Assembly (NCBI GenBank): GCA_905234865.1
Contig: CAJOJE010000008.1
Coordinates: 62,001-126,000 of the forward strand
DNA: 64,000 nt
DNA from: Candidatus Gastranaerophilales bacterium
Lineage (GTDB): Bacteria > Cyanobacteriota > Vampirovibrionia > Gastranaerophilales > Gastranaerophilaceae
Direction of reading: 5' to 3'
Of this stretch, positions 31,378 to 46,904 are shown one piece after another (position 1 is the first letter of the stretch; each line of letters begins with the position of its first letter). The position numbers and the translations under genes are program-made. Below the pieces are notes generated by a model. That model was not told the origin of the DNA and searched no databases. It saw only the letters and a list, made by a program, of their open reading frames with translations.

Positions 31378-31404
31378 TTGATACAGGTGTTTTTTCGGTA
31401 TAAT
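31378..31404 (+). promoter_or_regulatory. Candidate promoter of the tandem paralog locus
   Basis: TTGATA (31378-31383) and TATAAT (31399-31404) with a short 15-base spacer lie about 210 bases before the first paralog. The -10 box is perfect; the spacing is below optimum. Confidence 0.35.
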
Positions 31405-31509
31405 GTGCATGCATATTTTATTATTTGGCAAAATACAATTAACAACAACTGACAAGAATAGTTTATGCCGTTTTTCCGAAAAATCGGGAAAACAATAGAG
31501 ATGAGAGAG

Positions 31510-31580
31510 AATATGGCAGGAATTTTAAATAGAAATTTAAAATTTCGGTTAAAACACATATTTATTTTTGCTGCCATATT
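31510..31580 (+). ncRNA. Nested-hairpin structured 5' UTR
   Basis: AATATGGCAG (31510-31519) is perfectly complementary to CTGCCATATT (31571-31580). Inside it, AATTTTAAAT (31521-31530) pairs with ATTTAAAATT (31535-31544) around a four-base loop. The two 10-bp stems are nested, with a roughly 26-base single-stranded strip between them. The ribosome site AAAGGAGG of the first paralog lies about 20 bases downstream. No known riboswitch class was recognised. Confidence 0.45.
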
Positions 31581-31613
31581 TAAAAAAATACGCATATTAA
31601 AAGGAGGAATTTT

Positions 31614-32501
31614 ATGCCTATTCAAAACATTGCGGGATTGTCACAGTTAAATTCCGCTAACGGCTTATCACAAAAACAACAAAATTCAAACTCGCAAAAT
31701 TCACTTGCAAAAAGAAATGACACTTCTTTATTAAAAAGCGATGCAATAAGAAATAACGCTCTTGCAAACATTTCTTTTACGGGTCAGACAAAGCAATTTG
31801 TTAAACAAAATCGGGACTTTCGCCTTGACCACAGCGTATATATGTACGGAAAAGAATTCAGCGATGTTGAAATAGATGAAAAAGATATCGAACATTCAAT
31901 CGGGCAAACCGTTGAAAAAGGCGAAAAAGGTTATAATGATCAATGGGAAGGAAGCGCAAGCGTAAGCGTTTATTATGCTGACCCTAACGAAAGAATAACA
32001 AAAGATATCAGAAAAAACCACGCTTATATCGTTAAATATAAACCATTACCAAAAGAACCGTTGGTTGAAGATATGAGAGAAGTAAAAGACGTAGAAAGAC
32101 TCTCTCAAATGCTTGATGATTTAAAAGTAACTCAAGATATCGAAGAAGCAAAGCACAAAGCAAGAGAAGCAAACAGGAATGCTCAATACGAAAGAGAACA
32201 ATCTCTCGAAGAAAGAGGCGAAAAGGAACTTAAAAAATCAGCTGTCGCAAAAGAAAAAGCTAAAGCAAAAAGAGCGGAATTGGAAGACAAACAGGAACAT
32301 ATTTCTCAATTAAGCGAAAAATTAGATGCTGCTTATGCAAGGTATAAAGAAGTAACGGGAGAAGATTTTGTTCCAAAAGAAGAAAATCTTTTAACGGACA
32401 AAGAACGTGAAGAAAAAGTTGTTCATCAGGAAGCCTCGGAAAGCTACTACACAAGCCCTTACCATGGCTGGCAGCGCAAAGATCTTGCATATCGTTATTA
32501 A
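31614..32501 (+). CDS. Unknown protein, tandem paralog A
   Basis: The 295-residue protein has no signal peptide or membrane segment. Ser/Asn/Gln-rich residues 1-40 are followed by a short conserved patch NALANISFTGQT (48-59). A module at about 84-149 contains SVYYADPNERIT and NHAYIVKYKPLPKEP. A long charged coiled coil (about 160-250) and a tail with YTSPYHGWQRKDLAYRY close the protein. The middle module is shared with the next gene. No known family was recognised. The ribosome site is strong (AAAGGAGG) and the 5' UTR is structured. The second paralog starts 34 bases downstream. Confidence 0.75.
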   Translation: MPIQNIAGLSQLNSANGLSQKQQNSNSQNSLAKRNDTSLLKSDAIRNNALANISFTGQTKQFVKQNRDFRLDHSVYMYGKEFSDVEIDEKDIEHSIGQTVEKGEKGYNDQWEGSASVSVYYADPNERITKDIRKNHAYIVKYKPLPKEPLVEDMREVKDVERLSQMLDDLKVTQDIEEAKHKAREANRNAQYEREQSLEERGEKELKKSAVAKEKAKAKRAELEDKQEHISQLSEKLDAAYARYKEVTGEDFVPKEENLLTDKEREEKVVHQEASESYYTSPYHGWQRKDLAYRY

Positions 32502-32535
32502 TAAAAGCAGTATAAATAATTAAGGAGAATTTTAA

Positions 32536-33270
32536 ATGATAACAAATAATATACAGGGACTATCGGTAATGAACGCCATAAAGGCTGCTAATTCATCCGA
32601 TTTAAACAAAACAAATTCAAATGCTTCCGATTCGGTAAGAAACGATAAAAGCTTAATGAAGGGTGATGCGCTCAGAAATAATATGCTTGCTTCAATTGCT
32701 TTCAAAGGTGAAACAATTAAGTACCACAGAACGGGCGGAGCTTTTGCTTCAAATGTTTTAATTAAAATTAAACCGGAAAATATCAAACACTCGGAAGCCC
32801 AAACCGTTGTAAGAGGAAATAAAGGGTATGACGAACAATGGGTTGAAAGAGGAAGCCATGCCGATATGAGCGTTTATTATGCCGATCCTGACGAGAGAAT
32901 TACAAGAAAAATTAAAGATAACCATGGGTATATCGTAAAATATAAAGATATGCCGAAAGAACCTTCAATGGAATCCGTTCAAACGGAAAGCGATAAAGAT
33001 AAATTGACCGGCATGATATCCGATTTAAGGATTTCAAAAGAAATTGAAGAAAAAAGAAGCGAAATAATCGAAAAAGATATAAATAAACATGAAGAAATCG
33101 CCGCAAAAGCAAAACAAAAGGGCGAACAATTAAAAAGACAAGCTTCAAGAGAACGTTACCAAAGAACAATGGTTGAACAGGAATATTACAATAGAAGCTC
33201 TCAATTGAGTCGTGAAATAAATGAAACCACGTTTGATATAGCGGCTATGAAACGTAACCGACAGTCATAA
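32536..33270 (+). CDS. Unknown protein, tandem paralog B
   Basis: The 244-residue protein is built like its upstream neighbour: a Ser/Asn-rich start, MLASIAFKGET (50-60), a module with SVYYADPDERIT (112-123) and YIVKYKDMPKEP (132-143), then a charged coiled coil with many Glu/Lys/Arg. Identity to paralog A is concentrated in the module; the tails differ. It has its own ribosome site (AAGGAG). A terminator follows, so the pair forms one unit. Confidence 0.75.
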   Translation: MITNNIQGLSVMNAIKAANSSDLNKTNSNASDSVRNDKSLMKGDALRNNMLASIAFKGETIKYHRTGGAFASNVLIKIKPENIKHSEAQTVVRGNKGYDEQWVERGSHADMSVYYADPDERITRKIKDNHGYIVKYKDMPKEPSMESVQTESDKDKLTGMISDLRISKEIEEKRSEIIEKDINKHEEIAAKAKQKGEQLKRQASRERYQRTMVEQEYYNRSSQLSREINETTFDIAAMKRNRQS

Positions 33271-33280
33271 TTTTTTGCAA

Positions 33281-33302
33281 TCCGCCCGTTTTTACGGGCG
33301 GA
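33281..33302 (+). terminator. Intrinsic terminator after the paralog pair
   Basis: TCCGCCCGT (33281-33289) pairs with ACGGGCGGA (33294-33302) around a T-rich loop. It is GC-rich in an AT-rich setting. Confidence 0.7.
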
Positions 33303-33381: not shown

Positions 33382-34254
33382 ATGAATATGATTAAAGATA
33401 TAATTAGTATGATGAAGATAAAACACTACATAAAAAATTGTGTGGTGTTTGTTCCCGTTTTACTTTCAATGCAGTTTTTGAAATTTGAACTTTATCCTAA
33501 TTGTTTGATTATTTTTCTCTCTTTTTGTTTTATTTCTTCTGCCGTATATATTTTAAACGATTTATTTGATATTGAAAAAGATAAATTACACCCTACAAAA
33601 TCAAAAAGAGCAATAGCTTCGGGAAGAATTACCAAAAAAACGGCAATATTATCTTTTTTAATTTTGCTGATTCTCAGTTTTTCTCTTGTTTTGTTTTTAA
33701 ACATTCCTTCTTTTTTGTGTATATTATCCTATTTGGTGTTAAATATATTGTATTCGGCGTATTTTAAAAAAATTGCAATTGTTGATGTCTTTTGTATTGC
33801 GCTGGGATTTATTTTAAGAATTATATCGGGGTGTTTTGCAATCGGTGTTTTGCCCTCACCTTTAATTATATTAATGACAATGTTCGTGTCGATGTTTTTT
33901 ACTTTTTCAAAAAGAAAACTTGAACTTAAATATGTGAAGGATAAAAATTTATATCGTGAGTCGATAAAAGATTTTAACGAAAATATGGTTAACCAATTTA
34001 TATTATTTAATGCGGTTTTGTCGGTTTCGTTTTACATAACTTACGTACTTGATAAAACAACAATTCAAAGAGCAGGGTGCGAATATTTGTACATTACGAC
34101 AATACCTTTTGTACCGGTGATTTTAAGACTTCTTTTTCTTGTTAATTCAGACAAAACCGATGATGACCCTATGCGCTTTATTGAAAAAGATGTGCCTATT
34201 AGAATTTTATTTCTTTTGTATATCTTAATTCTTGTTATACCGGCGACAATATAA
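33382..34254 (+). CDS. UbiA-family prenyltransferase, DPPR-synthase-like
   Basis: The 290-residue integral membrane protein has eight or nine helices. The first prenyl-diphosphate motif is NDLFDIEKDKLHP followed by KRAIASG, and the second region reads VDVFCIALGFILRIISG. This pattern, plus the loop containing KRKLELKYVKD, matches the decaprenyl-phosphate phosphoribosyltransferase branch (Rv3806c-like) better than quinone-synthesis UbiA. DPPR synthases transfer phosphoribose to a polyprenyl phosphate. No arabinose-transfer genes are nearby. A TATAAG box lies 12 bases before the ATG. Confidence 0.75.
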   Translation: MNMIKDIISMMKIKHYIKNCVVFVPVLLSMQFLKFELYPNCLIIFLSFCFISSAVYILNDLFDIEKDKLHPTKSKRAIASGRITKKTAILSFLILLILSFSLVLFLNIPSFLCILSYLVLNILYSAYFKKIAIVDVFCIALGFILRIISGCFAIGVLPSPLIILMTMFVSMFFTFSKRKLELKYVKDKNLYRESIKDFNENMVNQFILFNAVLSVSFYITYVLDKTTIQRAGCEYLYITTIPFVPVILRLLFLVNSDKTDDDPMRFIEKDVPIRILFLLYILILVIPATI

Positions 34255-41920: not shown

Positions 41921-42925
41921 ATGGATAAAGAATATATTTTAAACAATTTGGAAAAGTTATACGAACCGAAAATTCTTGTCATCGGGGATTTTGCCATTGA
42001 TGAAATGATTTTCGGACAGACGGAAAGAATTTCAAGAGAGGCGCCTGTTCTAATTTTAGAACATACCGACACCAAAATTATTTTAGGAACGGCATCGAAT
42101 GCCGCCAATAATATCTCTGCCTTAAACAAAGGAAAAGTTGGTGCAATAGGCGTGTACGGCGATGATTACCATGGAAAAATTTTGCTTCAGGCATTAAATG
42201 AAGCCAAAATCGATACGACCTTTATGGTCATGGACAAAACAAGAAAAACAACCACGAAAACCAGAATTTCAGGCTCATGTTCTCAAAGCGTAACGCAGCA
42301 AATCGTCAGAATAGACAGGCAGACAAAAACCCCCGTATCGGGCGAAGTTGAAGAAAAAATAATGGAAAATATAAAAAAAGCCGTAAAATTATACGACGGA
42401 ATTATTCTCTCCGATTACCATTTGGGGCTTTTAACGGATAATGTCATAAAATGCGCAATTGAAGAAGCAAAAAAATACAATAAAATTATTGTTGCCGACA
42501 TTCAAAAAGACTTTCTGAAATATAAAGGAGTAACTTCGATTACTCCAAACCAGCCCGATACCGAAAAATTCATCGGAAAATTTATTGTCGATGATAAAAC
42601 TTTAAATGAGGCAGGGGAAGAACTTTTATCAAAATTGGAATTAAAAAATCTCCTTATCACAAGAGGGGAAAACGGTATGGCGGTTTTTGAAGAAAACAAA
42701 CCCGTTGAAAAAATCCCCGCCTTCAATAAAAAAGAAGTTTTTGACGTAACAGGCGCCGGAGATACGGTAGTTGCGGCGTATACTCTTGCTTTATGCGCCG
42801 GTTTTAATGCTAAATATGCAGCCACAATAGGTAATTTAGCCGCAAGTATCGTTATAAGATTTTTCGGTTGTCACACGACAACGGTTGAAAATTTAAAATT
42901 TGAACTTAAAAATTTAATGATTTAG
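41921..42925 (+). CDS. D-glycero-beta-D-manno-heptose-7-phosphate kinase (RfaE1/HldA-type)
   Basis: The 334-residue PfkB-fold sugar kinase resembles the N-terminal half of HldE: LVIGDFAIDEMIFGQTERIS at the start, SREAPVLILE and the PfkB signature DVTGAGDTVVAAYTLAL with its catalytic aspartate. It would phosphorylate heptose-7-phosphate at C1 for ADP-heptose synthesis. The adenylyltransferase half is absent, so a separate HldC-like enzyme would be needed. It heads a cluster with a DUF4330 protein and an O-antigen-ligase-like protein. Confidence 0.82.
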   Translation: MDKEYILNNLEKLYEPKILVIGDFAIDEMIFGQTERISREAPVLILEHTDTKIILGTASNAANNISALNKGKVGAIGVYGDDYHGKILLQALNEAKIDTTFMVMDKTRKTTTKTRISGSCSQSVTQQIVRIDRQTKTPVSGEVEEKIMENIKKAVKLYDGIILSDYHLGLLTDNVIKCAIEEAKKYNKIIVADIQKDFLKYKGVTSITPNQPDTEKFIGKFIVDDKTLNEAGEELLSKLELKNLLITRGENGMAVFEENKPVEKIPAFNKKEVFDVTGAGDTVVAAYTLALCAGFNAKYAATIGNLAASIVIRFFGCHTTTVENLKFELKNLMI

Positions 42926-42937
42926 GGGAGTTTGGAA

Positions 42938-43504
42938 ATGGATTTTATAAAAAAAATAAGACCTTTTGATATCGTAATTATTGCTTTAATCGTTATAGGG
43001 CTGGTCGTTTTTGGAATTACACGTTTAGAAAAAAGAGCAACTTCGTCAAAACAAATTGAAGCCGAAGTAAAAGTTGATATTGAAGTTTATTTCAGAGGGG
43101 TTGTAATAACAAGCCAAAATTCCCCGTTTAAAGAGGGTGAAGAATCATTTATCACAATAAGAAATGTTCCTTATACAAAACTCAAAATTAAAAATGCAAA
43201 TTTTGAAAGAAAAAAAATCATGCTTCCCATCCCCAATTCCTCCAAATATCAAGTCGTTGAGGATGTAACGGCACCTTTCAATTATGATTTTCTGGTTACG
43301 TTGGAAGATAGCGCAAAAATCACAAAAGACGGCGCAGTTGTGGGCGGAAACAAAATAAAAATCGGATTGCCGGTTACGTTAGAAGGCGTTGACTATAAAC
43401 TGAACGGGGTTGTTTCAAATATTACCCTGTCTAAAGCGGTTAGCGAAAATAATTCAAACAGCTCACTTGAAGCAGAGGTCAACAAAAATCAAGATGTTCA
43501 TTAA
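42938..43504 (+). CDS. DUF4330-like single-pass membrane protein
   Basis: A cytoplasmic basic start (MDFIKKIRPFD) is followed by one hydrophobic helix (IVIIALIVIGLVVFGI) and a beta-rich external domain. The arrangement resembles DUF4330 proteins found beside cyanobacterial polysaccharide genes. Function unknown. The ATG at 42938 has AGGGGAG seven bases upstream and is preferred over the TTG at 42932. It overlaps the following ligase gene by 11 bases. Confidence 0.6.
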   Translation: MDFIKKIRPFDIVIIALIVIGLVVFGITRLEKRATSSKQIEAEVKVDIEVYFRGVVITSQNSPFKEGEESFITIRNVPYTKLKIKNANFERKKIMLPIPNSSKYQVVEDVTAPFNYDFLVTLEDSAKITKDGAVVGGNKIKIGLPVTLEGVDYKLNGVVSNITLSKAVSENNSNSSLEAEVNKNQDVH

Positions 43505-44855
43505 CGAAATAATTAAACGGTTTCAAAATTCAAAAATTGCCGATTTTATGGCGGACAGTTTGATTTTTAAACACATAGACAATATTGCTTTTGTTATTCT
43601 TGGTTTCGTCATAATTCTCACAACATACGCAGAATCCAATTATATCGGGTATTTTGCAATGTTGTTTTCATTATGCATGTTGTTTAAATTAATCGTAAAA
43701 AAGGATGAAACCGTTCAATGCTCCCTTATAAATAAAATTTTAATCATTTATTTTTTAATAGTTTTAATCTCGGCATTCGGCGCAAGTTATTTTTCCCTAA
43801 GCCTTAAAGGATTAATGAAAACCGTTATTTATTTTTGTTTTTATTTTTCATCCGCATATTACTTATCTTCAAATAAAAGAAAAATCATACCTCTTATAAT
43901 TTTAATCTGTCTTACAACGGGGCTTGAGGCAATAATAGGCATAATTCAAAATTTATCGCACATAGAAGCGATTGCAACCTGGCAAGACACAACAAACATT
44001 ACAGACCCCACCAAAATACTATCAAGAGCCTACGGAACCCTAAAACCGTATAATCCGAATTTACTTGCAGGGTACTTATTAACGGGGTTATGTTCAAGTC
44101 TTGGTATGTTTTTGGTTTCCAATTACAGAAAAAATAAAATCGGAATAATACTTTTTGGTGCATTATTTTGTACGATTTTTTACGCAATTTTTGTCACCGG
44201 TTCAAGAGGCGCATATTTAGGACTTTTTGGTTTATTCATTACCGTTTTGTACTGTATTCATAAATATATCAAAAATAACTTCGGCTCAATATCAAAAATA
44301 AAAGCTAAATTCAAAGTTATTTTTGCTTCGATAATTGCTTTTTGTGCAGGCATTGCTTGTTTTATCCCGTCATTTCGAGAAAGATTTTTATCGGTCTTTA
44401 CGCTCAGGGGCGATTCTTCAATTGCCTTTAGGATGAATGTATACGAAGCATGCATAAAAATGTTTCAAGACAATCCTTTTTTAGGAATAGGCGTCGGCAA
44501 TAAAAATTTTAGAGAAATATACGGTTTATATATGAAAACGGGATACGATGCCTTGGGTGCATACAGTGTACCTCTTGAAATTGCCGTAGAATCGGGAATT
44601 TTTGCGCTTTTGAGCTTTGGTTTATTTATATTTTTAACCGTAAAAAAAATTCTGCATTTTATTAATTCGGATGTTATTCACCCGATTAGGAAATTTGTAT
44701 TATTTTCCGTTTTGCTTACAATATTTGCTCTTATGTTCCATGGATTGTTCGATACGATATTTTTCCGTCCGCAGGTTCAAATTATTTTTTGGCTAAACAT
44801 AGCAATTTTCCACTCACTTTGTTATAAAAATAAGTTTTGTTACAAACATAATTAA
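43494..44855 (+). CDS. O-antigen ligase / Wzy-like polytopic membrane protein
   Basis: The protein has about 453 residues and 11-12 predicted membrane helices with a large loop. The Wzy_C/WaaL-type region includes VTGSRGAYLGLFGLF and NPFLGIGVGNKNFREIYG, with a later His-containing loop before MFHGLFDTIFFRPQVQ. Such proteins join or polymerise undecaprenyl-linked glycans outside the inner membrane. The ATG at 43494 lies inside the end of the DUF4330 gene; upstream in-frame starts have no support. Confidence 0.82.
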   Translation: MFINEIIKRFQNSKIADFMADSLIFKHIDNIAFVILGFVIILTTYAESNYIGYFAMLFSLCMLFKLIVKKDETVQCSLINKILIIYFLIVLISAFGASYFSLSLKGLMKTVIYFCFYFSSAYYLSSNKRKIIPLIILICLTTGLEAIIGIIQNLSHIEAIATWQDTTNITDPTKILSRAYGTLKPYNPNLLAGYLLTGLCSSLGMFLVSNYRKNKIGIILFGALFCTIFYAIFVTGSRGAYLGLFGLFITVLYCIHKYIKNNFGSISKIKAKFKVIFASIIAFCAGIACFIPSFRERFLSVFTLRGDSSIAFRMNVYEACIKMFQDNPFLGIGVGNKNFREIYGLYMKTGYDALGAYSVPLEIAVESGIFALLSFGLFIFLTVKKILHFINSDVIHPIRKFVLFSVLLTIFALMFHGLFDTIFFRPQVQIIFWLNIAIFHSLCYKNKFCYKHN

Positions 44856-44911
44856 AAACAGGCAAATTTTTCTTAAAAAACGCCTTTATTAAAGTGTAGG
44901 AGCGGAAAATT

Positions 44912-45700
44912 ATGTCAACTAATCAAATTTCACCGTCATCATATCAAGTTTCAAGCGGACCTTCCGTTATAGGTGCAATCGGAAGTTCTTTATTGAATGT
45001 CGGTTTAACGGTAGGTGCCGGAGCCGCAGCGGGCGGCGCTGCAGGAAAAATTGCGTCTTTAATCCCCTCAAAACCATCAGAAGCCGCTCTTGAACATCAA
45101 TATAAAGATATGTTCCAAAAAGCTGCCCGAAATACGGAAGAATTGCCAAAATATCTGGAGAATATGGAGGCAGGCGCAAAAGAGATTATCAAAGACATAA
45201 TCAAAAGAGGCCAAGGGGTTAATGTAGCGCAGAATGCAAAAAATGCAGAATTTGCAACCGTTATGGAAATTGCACAAACGGCAGCGGCGCATACGGACGA
45301 AACAATTAAAGCTCCCGAAGTACAGGAACAAATAAAAAATCTGTTTAAAGATGCTGCCGTTCCGACAGGCGGCTATGAAAAAGCAGGAATTAAACAGCGC
45401 CTTGACAAGATGGCAGAAACAATCGGGGCAGCAAGCGAAACCAATAAGGCAACTTTAGGCAAGATAGAAGAAGAATTTGTAAGCAAAGTCAAGGGGCAAG
45501 GCTTTGAAAATATACAAGAATTAGCAAAAGACGGCGCAAAACATTTAAGAAAAACCACCCTTATAGGTGCAGGAATAGGCGTTGGCGTGTTCGTGGCGCT
45601 TGCTATTAATTTATTTAACTCGTTTGGTTCAATCGGCAAAAAGTATATGTCAAAAGGTCAACAAGGACAAGCTGCAGGCGGTTTTTCAACACAAGCATGA
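44912..45700 (+). CDS. Unknown protein with glycine-zipper and C-terminal membrane helix
   Basis: In this 262-residue protein a Ser-rich start is followed by a Gly/Ala-rich hydrophobic segment with GxxxG spacing (VGLTVGAGAAAGGAAGKIAS), about 130 residues of amphipathic helix, and a second hydrophobic segment near the C terminus (LIGAGIGVGVFVALAINLF). It could insert as a hairpin or act as a membrane-active scaffold. No family was recognised. A good ribosome site (TAGGAG) precedes the ATG and a terminator follows, so it is monocistronic. Confidence 0.65.
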   Translation: MSTNQISPSSYQVSSGPSVIGAIGSSLLNVGLTVGAGAAAGGAAGKIASLIPSKPSEAALEHQYKDMFQKAARNTEELPKYLENMEAGAKEIIKDIIKRGQGVNVAQNAKNAEFATVMEIAQTAAAHTDETIKAPEVQEQIKNLFKDAAVPTGGYEKAGIKQRLDKMAETIGAASETNKATLGKIEEEFVSKVKGQGFENIQELAKDGAKHLRKTTLIGAGIGVGVFVALAINLFNSFGSIGKKYMSKGQQGQAAGGFSTQA

Positions 45701-45715
45701 TTTTATAATATTTAA

Positions 45716-45746
45716 AAAGGCGGCAATATCAAAAATTACCGCCTTT
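45716..45746. terminator. Bidirectional terminator
   Basis: AAAGGCGG (45716-45723) pairs with CCGCCTTT (45739-45746) between the glycine-zipper gene and convergent bioD. Confidence 0.8.
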
Positions 45747-45752
45747 AATAAA

Positions 45753-46412
45753 TTATCTTTTAATCATAATCGAATCGTTAATCTCGGATACGAGTTTTGA
45801 AAAATCTTTTTGGTTTTTCTTCACTATGCTTAAAACTTTTATTCCGTCAGAATACATCTCAATCATTTCTTTTGCCCTTAAAATAACGGGGTCGTCGGTT
45901 TTATCGGGGAAATTCGATATAACTGTTCCTAAAACTTTTATGTCATTATTTAAAAGACAATCTATCGTCATAAGTGTATGATTAATCGTTCCCAAATCAG
46001 GACGAGCAACGACAAGAACGGGTAAATTCAGGTATTTTATGACATCAACCATAAGAACACCTTTTTTAACGGGAACGTATATTCCGCCCGAACCCTCTAC
46101 AATAACGTTTTCCGCTTCATTTTTCAGAATATTGAAGTCATCTTTTACTTTTTTAAGGTCAAATTCAACTCCGTCAATTTCGGCGGAAATTAAGGGCGTA
46201 GACGGCGTTTTTGTAATGTAAGAGCTTTTTGCGACAATATTTCCCGATTGTGCAACATTTTGCGCATCCGATAAAACATTTTCGACAACACCCGATTGAA
46301 ATGGCTTCAGATAAGCAACCGTTTCTTTTTGCTTAGCCAATTCTTCGCAAATCCCTTTTGAAACATAACTTTTACCAACATCAGTATCCGTTCCGGTTAC
46401 AAAAATATACAT
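45753..46412 (-). CDS. bioD: Dethiobiotin synthetase
   Basis: BioD carboxylates 7,8-diaminononanoate in an ATP-dependent ring closure, the penultimate step of biotin synthesis. The 219-residue P-loop protein shows GTDTDVGKSYVSKG (7-20), KPFQSG and VEGSGGIYVPV. No other bio genes are in this window. The start has a strong ribosome site (GAGGAGG). Confidence 0.93.
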   Translation of the reverse strand: MYIFVTGTDTDVGKSYVSKGICEELAKQKETVAYLKPFQSGVVENVLSDAQNVAQSGNIVAKSSYITKTPSTPLISAEIDGVEFDLKKVKDDFNILKNEAENVIVEGSGGIYVPVKKGVLMVDVIKYLNLPVLVVARPDLGTINHTLMTIDCLLNNDIKVLGTVISNFPDKTDDPVILRAKEMIEMYSDGIKVLSIVKKNQKDFSKLVSEINDSIMIKR

Positions 46413-46463
46413 AAAACCTCCTCTTTTATATCATTATATCAAAAATAGTGTAAAATAAAATCT

Positions 46464-46904
46464 ATGAAAGCGATATTACAAAGAGTAAAAAAAGCGGAAG
46501 TCGAAATCGAGAATAAAACTTATTCCGCAATTCAAGAAGGGATTTTAATTTTATTCGGAGTGGAAAAAAATGACACTTCGGATATGATTGATTTTTTCGT
46601 TAATAAAGTTTTAAATTTAAGAATTTTTGAAGACGAAAACGAAAAAATGAACTTATCAATTAAAGATATAAAAGGAGAAATTCTTGTCGTTTCTCAATTT
46701 ACTTTGGCTTCAGACTGCAAAAAGGGGCTTAGACCTTCTTTTGATAACGCTATGGAACCAAAGAGCGCAAAAGAATATTACGAAATTTTTGTATCGAAAT
46801 TAAAAGAGTCGAATTTAACCGTAAAAACAGGTATTTTTGGAGCAATGATGAATGTTTCTCTTATAAATAACGGTCCTGTCACTTTTATTTTGGAGAAAAA
46901 ATGA
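46464..46904 (+). CDS. dtd: D-aminoacyl-tRNA deacylase
   Basis: Dtd removes D-amino acids (and glycine from tRNA-Ala) mischarged on tRNAs. The 146-residue protein has the catalytic motifs SQFTLASDCKKGLRPSF and NNGPVTF at the C terminus. The start has no Shine-Dalgarno sequence; TAAAAT lies seven bases upstream, again suggesting a leaderless mRNA. Its stop overlaps the cca start by four bases, so two tRNA-quality genes are coupled. Confidence 0.95.
   Translation: MKAILQRVKKAEVEIENKTYSAIQEGILILFGVEKNDTSDMIDFFVNKVLNLRIFEDENEKMNLSIKDIKGEILVVSQFTLASDCKKGLRPSFDNAMEPKSAKEYYEIFVSKLKESNLTVKTGIFGAMMNVSLINNGPVTFILEKK

Follow-up and report, generated by a model that had tools for sequence, protein, structure and literature searches.

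Predicted coiled-coil proteins P1 and P2: paired members of an undescribed, F-x-G-tagged family almost restricted to Gastranaerophilales

The locus described here is a pair of adjacent genes, P1 and P2, in a Gastranaerophilales genome of 1.87 Mb in 22 contigs (G000). The pair lies within the window, which is the whole 64-kb stretch of DNA that was analysed (G000:C8:62001-126000); positions are those of the window, and all features of the locus are on the forward strand. P1 (31614-32501) encodes 295 amino acids and P2 (32536-33270) encodes 244. The genes are separated by 34 nt, and each is preceded by a good ribosome site read directly from the sequence, AAGGAGG for P1 (31601-31607) and AAGGAG for P2 (32522-32527). 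Alignment of the two open reading frames gives 41% identity over 219 residues (E=7e-48), and both products share a Ser/Asn-rich start, a short patch (ISFTG or IAFKG), and a module bearing VYYADPxERIT and NHxYIVKYKxxPKEP. The patch, located by alignment, contains an N-terminal F-x-G tag and occupies residues 53-57 of P1 (31770-31784; F-x-G at 55-57) and 54-58 of P2 (32695-32709; F-x-G at 56-58). The VYYADPxE...YIVKY...PKEP module spans residues ~115-149 of P1 (31956-32060), as placed by module profile A3 and the structural model, and residues ~113-143 of P2 (32872-32964), as placed by the module profile and alignment. Past residue ~158 the two tails diverge; that of P1 is modelled by AlphaFold as one long helix, a predicted coiled coil at residues 158-248 (32085-32357). 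Neither start contains a visible hydrophobic stretch resembling a signal peptide. The original prediction had described two neighbouring reading frames of similar build, with different tails after a common module, and had suggested duplication followed by specialisation. Their positions and identity bear out the description, and a maximum-likelihood tree agrees with the duplication, pairing P1 with P2 (support 98/88) and placing L188, the closest relative, as the next branch (100/99). The duplication is thus later than the split from the L188 lineage. The pair stands alone in the window, outside any glucan gene cluster. Downstream of P2 lies a UbiA-like prenyltransferase gene (33382-34254) for which eight congeneric genomes gave no match at E <= 1e-20, and this part of the window may therefore be an accessory region.

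P1 is preceded by a structured leader. A putative promoter, read from the sequence, consists of TTGATA (31378-31383) and TATAAT (31399-31404) separated by a 15-nt spacer, the latter element being compatible with a 5′ UTR of ~200 nt; a promoter scan requiring a spacer of 16-18 bases did not list this pair. The leader as a whole is more stable than its dinucleotide shuffles (z -3.1), as are two hairpins within it (z -4.1 each). The 5′ hairpin (31470-31493; 10 bp, a GAAAAA-type loop, -12 kcal/mol) is a third structure, additional to the two nested perfect 10-bp stems that had been predicted. Both of the latter are present within the second hairpin (31509-31581; -20.2 kcal/mol), as an outer stem within repeat I1 (31510-31519/31571-31580) and an inner, AT-only repeat (31521-31530/31535-31544). 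The minimum-energy fold retains the outer stem, lengthens it to 11 bp (31509-31519/31571-31581), and leaves the inner stem unused as such. The GC-rich terminator proposed to close the unit is likewise found, as a hairpin of 9 bp with 7 GC pairs (33281-33302; -18.3 kcal/mol, z -5.1), followed on its 3′ side by a poor U-tract (ATTTCTATAA). The further proposal, that the leader exerts post-transcriptional control, fared less well. Rfam returned no match to the leader at the gathering score, and a relaxed search produced sub-threshold noise only. No homologous leader was found among 19 relatives, and the gene of L188 begins 13 nt after a radical-SAM gene, which leaves no space there for a comparable leader. 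A regulatory role for the P1/P2 leader is possible but unsupported.

The pair falls into a so far uncharacterised family of proteins, almost restricted to Gastranaerophilales. Consistent with the original claim that the module lies outside known families, neither protein matched Pfam, NCBIfam, PHROGs, or PADLOC (the last at E 0.01) above cut-off, and the module profile, searched against PDB sequences, gave nothing significant (no match below E 0.28). Pfam searches of 22 family members returned mainly coiled-coil noise, and the Pfam matches of P1, P2, and these 22 include no carbohydrate-binding domain. Searched directly, P2 found no relative among GTDB species contigs and P1 found weak matches only among 98 relatives, so the module profile was needed to reach the family. 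That profile located members in 50 of the 286 genomes of the order, the weakest few of which may be chance matches. Forty-nine of the 50 fall within one bacterial family, and outside it a search spread across the phylum turned up a single marginal match; the named records among the relatives are Candidatus Gastranaerophilales. Viral contigs and phage records, searched with queries from family group A, held no relatives, nor did plasmid records searched with P2. Titles and abstracts in the literature yielded nothing on an FxG/VYxADP family or on an "N-terminal motif" of Gastranaerophilales.

Members range from 176 to ~500 amino acids in length. Across an alignment of 22, the invariant positions are the initiator Met, the F and G of the tag (22 of 22, P1 and P2 included), the Y-A-P-E of VYxADPxE, and two prolines. 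The pattern Y-x-A-D/S-P-x-E with a later P..P is present in all 22 aligned sequences, P1 and P2 among them; two highly diverged sequences added afterwards do not conform to it. The short IS/AF-T/KG patch noted in the original prediction proves to be the most constant part of the family, with F and G in all members collected. The same prediction had spoken of an undescribed system. By the family searches this holds at the level of an undescribed family. Two small proteins with F-x-G starts (TSFGGH and NFKGH) are also encoded in G000 (L023 15005-15592, at C8 ~35 kb, and L024 15901-16422); the former has a VYFADPGE stretch reminiscent of the module in highly diverged form.

The predicted architecture is simple. 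AlphaFold models of P1 (mean pLDDT 61, low confidence) and of the group-A member L158 (mean 76) agree on a disordered start, a short helix ahead of F-x-G, a strand-helix-strand module, and long helices. Fold searches with these models recovered generic helical assemblies and coiled coils only; the helices fill the list of matches and the module itself is barely probed. Matches of this kind say nothing about the function of the family.

In group A and at L188 the family gene belongs to a recurrent set (L188 3378-11867; L158-L168) that contains genes for a kinase-like protein with a hydrophobic segment at its C-terminus, a HAD-IIB-like protein, a radical SAM/SPASM protein, a GH13-like protein, and a methyltransferase, the radical SAM/SPASM protein and the methyltransferase being assigned by Pfam. 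The set further includes a protein that falls into one cluster with the radical SAM/SPASM protein, and some loci lack some of the genes. At L188, and at 11 of the 16 named loci of group A, the family gene is immediately adjoined by the GH13-like gene, whose product resembles the Thermotoga maltosyltransferase 1gju (E 1e-4 and 2e-5). G000 encodes two homologs of this protein (E 1.7e-138 and 2.2e-120), each forming the front part of a ~1200-aa protein that carries starch synthase-type glycosyltransferase domains (L023 3460-7119, at C8 ~23.5 kb; L085 3239-6850, at C2 ~83.2 kb); one of these two proteins is a clear starch synthase. One F-x-G-tagged starch synthase of G000 is encoded two genes away from such a fusion. 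A tagged starch synthase-like protein of this genome (L085 7400-10003; G000:C2:87397-90003) has a C-terminal dual-specificity-type phosphatase domain by Pfam, an uncommon combination reminiscent of glucan phosphatases. Elsewhere in the family the surroundings differ. Group B members are flanked by another F-x-G-tagged protein, often followed by thioredoxin-like and DJ-1/PfpI-like proteins, named by reading their sequences, and groups C and D have housekeeping neighbours. The tagged protein adjoining group B (L169-L176, L228-L230) represents a second tagged family, of ~290 aa with NTNFKGLFTD...MEYxPYSWE. The glucan context is thus limited to one family branch plus L188, the member nearest to P1 and P2. 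With P1 and P2 themselves outside a glucan cluster and different neighbours in groups B, C, and D, the link to glucan amounts to guilt by association inside that branch.

The tag extends beyond the family. All 50 distinct members carry F-x-G between position 8 and residue ~75, against 8.9 expected from composition, a comparison made among members that are related to one another. Tagged proteins were counted over sampled stretches, 800 kb in G000 and 400 kb in each of three other genomes. In G000 the tag lies near the N-terminus of proteins of other kinds as well: a NAD-dependent epimerase, several uncharacterised proteins, and two starch synthases. A position-specific matrix of the family tag, run over 350 long G000 proteins, gave 6 N-terminal matches versus 0 and 1 in two internal windows; no clear N-terminal excess appeared in G039, G069, or the class-level relative G082. 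A regular-expression test of enrichment gave p 0.008 in G000 and nothing in G039, G069, and G082. Applied to the neighbourhood set it gave p 2e-4, but that set includes homologous copies and is thus not independent. The tag genuinely characterises the family, along with a few families encoded beside it, and its genome-wide signal is modest.

The best explanation, which we hold tentatively, is that the family provides cytoplasmic coiled-coil scaffolds docked through the F-x-G tag and probably serving alpha-glucan enzymes. P1 and P2 would be non-catalytic and cytoplasmic; their long helices would oligomerise into rods, the VYxADPxE module would bind a partner, and the tag would dock the family, together with some co-tagged proteins, onto a common assembly. 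The GH13-like gene adjoining the closest relatives and the two tagged starch synthases of G000 point to alpha-glucan (glycogen-like) metabolism as the most likely partner, and P1 and P2 would then be a duplicated pair located away from such a cluster. Speaking against this arrangement are the lack of a recognisable carbohydrate-binding domain in the Pfam searches, a P1 model of low confidence, the position of P1, P2, and groups B, C, and D away from glucan clusters, and a tag enrichment that is modest in G000 and unseen in G039 and G082. A bolder extension, which we regard as speculative and on balance doubtful, is that F-x-G is a new sorting or docking signal on otherwise unrelated Gastranaerophilales proteins. 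Its carriers would be the coiled-coil family, the starch synthases, the kinase-like membrane protein, the HAD-like protein, and others. The signal might gather them at one structure, for example an export machine derived from the flagellum or a body associated with glucan, where the P1/P2 family would act as scaffold or main substrate. If the motif were such a signal, it would constitute a new protein-targeting code accessible to reporter fusions.

The same start of the protein can be read in the opposite direction, as a signal for leaving the cell. The Ser/Asn/Ile-rich disordered segment and F-x-G would then address a retained type III-like apparatus, and P1 and P2 would be exported coiled-coil proteins. 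Such an apparatus is plausibly at hand. FliP was found in 10 of the 10 family-bearing genomes tested, within a conserved operon of FliM/N-, FliO-, FliP-, FliQ-, and FliR-type genes (L208 6757-10764, that is, G000:C3 ~42756-46763; L209-L217), all five types being confirmed by Pfam at one locus, and the operon may encode a flagellum-derived export machine without a flagellum. Most Gastranaerophilales genomes available at the time of an earlier survey are reported to keep only a subset of flagellar genes (Soo et al. 2014, PMC4040986). A retained FliPQR-type machine fits such a partial set. The operon often has a small extra gene ahead of FliR, and a second FliP occurs in 6 of the 10 genomes, the rest, G000 included, having a single one. 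In G000, moreover, a tagged gene of 851 aa is convergent with the export operon, but tagged genes are not clearly concentrated near it in other genomes. The presence of FliP does not discriminate, since it was tested in family-bearing rather than tag-free genomes, and the tag also marks proteins expected to stay inside the cell, the starch synthases and the NAD-dependent epimerase among them. We consider this reading, with its putative export of P1 and P2, unlikely. About equally likely is a cytoplasmic structural or scaffolding role that has nothing to do with glucan, for example in shaping the cell, organising the envelope, or coping with stress; the glucan genes beside group A would then be incidental. 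This somewhat doubtful alternative gains from the different company kept by groups B, C, and D, from the isolation of P1 and P2 in the window, and from the scaffold-like architecture common to all family groups. It accounts less readily for a GH13-like gene directly adjacent in most named group-A loci and again at L188, an arrangement beyond loose proximity.

Far less probable than either is that P1 is an Nmad5 nucleotide-modification or phage-defence protein carried in on an acquired region. P1 matches the Nmad5 profile (PF18757) over residues 43-186 with 22 bits (23 in the genome search), and its unmatched UbiA-like neighbour would suit an acquired region. The curated cut-off is 27, however, and P2, L188, and the other members scanned have no match; sub-threshold matches also occur in 5 of 14 control genomes, and none exceeds the cut-off in 8 genomes. 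We therefore rejected Nmad5 identity on the score of P1, which is below the curated cut-off and isolated among the members scanned. An origin in phage, plasmid, or defence elements was rejected as well, given no relatives in the viral, phage (group-A queries), and plasmid (P2 query) records and no match to a PHROGs or PADLOC family.

Little is known of the cell biology of Gastranaerophilales, gut-dwelling relatives of cyanobacteria, and a lineage-restricted family with an invariant motif and a partial tie to a glucan/radical-SAM cluster offers a concrete entry point to them. Set beside known systems, the family shares with Nmad5 a weak profile match in P1, and differs from it in the sub-threshold score and in the unmatched members. 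Like type III (flagellar or injectisome) substrates, it has a disordered Ser/Asn/Ile-rich start and hosts that retain FliPQR-type genes; unlike them, it bears an invariant F-x-G, and its export is putative. Type III signals are not, to our knowledge, marked by such an invariant motif. Compared from general knowledge with targeting proteins associated with glycogen or starch, the family resembles them in one branch, where the coiled-coil gene sits beside genes for glucan-active enzymes, and departs from them in that no carbohydrate-binding module was found in it. Its head module and invariant F-x-G match no family in the libraries searched and set it apart from bacterial coiled-coil scaffolds, with which it shares a small head, a disordered start, and long predicted helices. 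The family is thus an undescribed one of a familiar protein kind, whose N-terminal signal is possibly novel.
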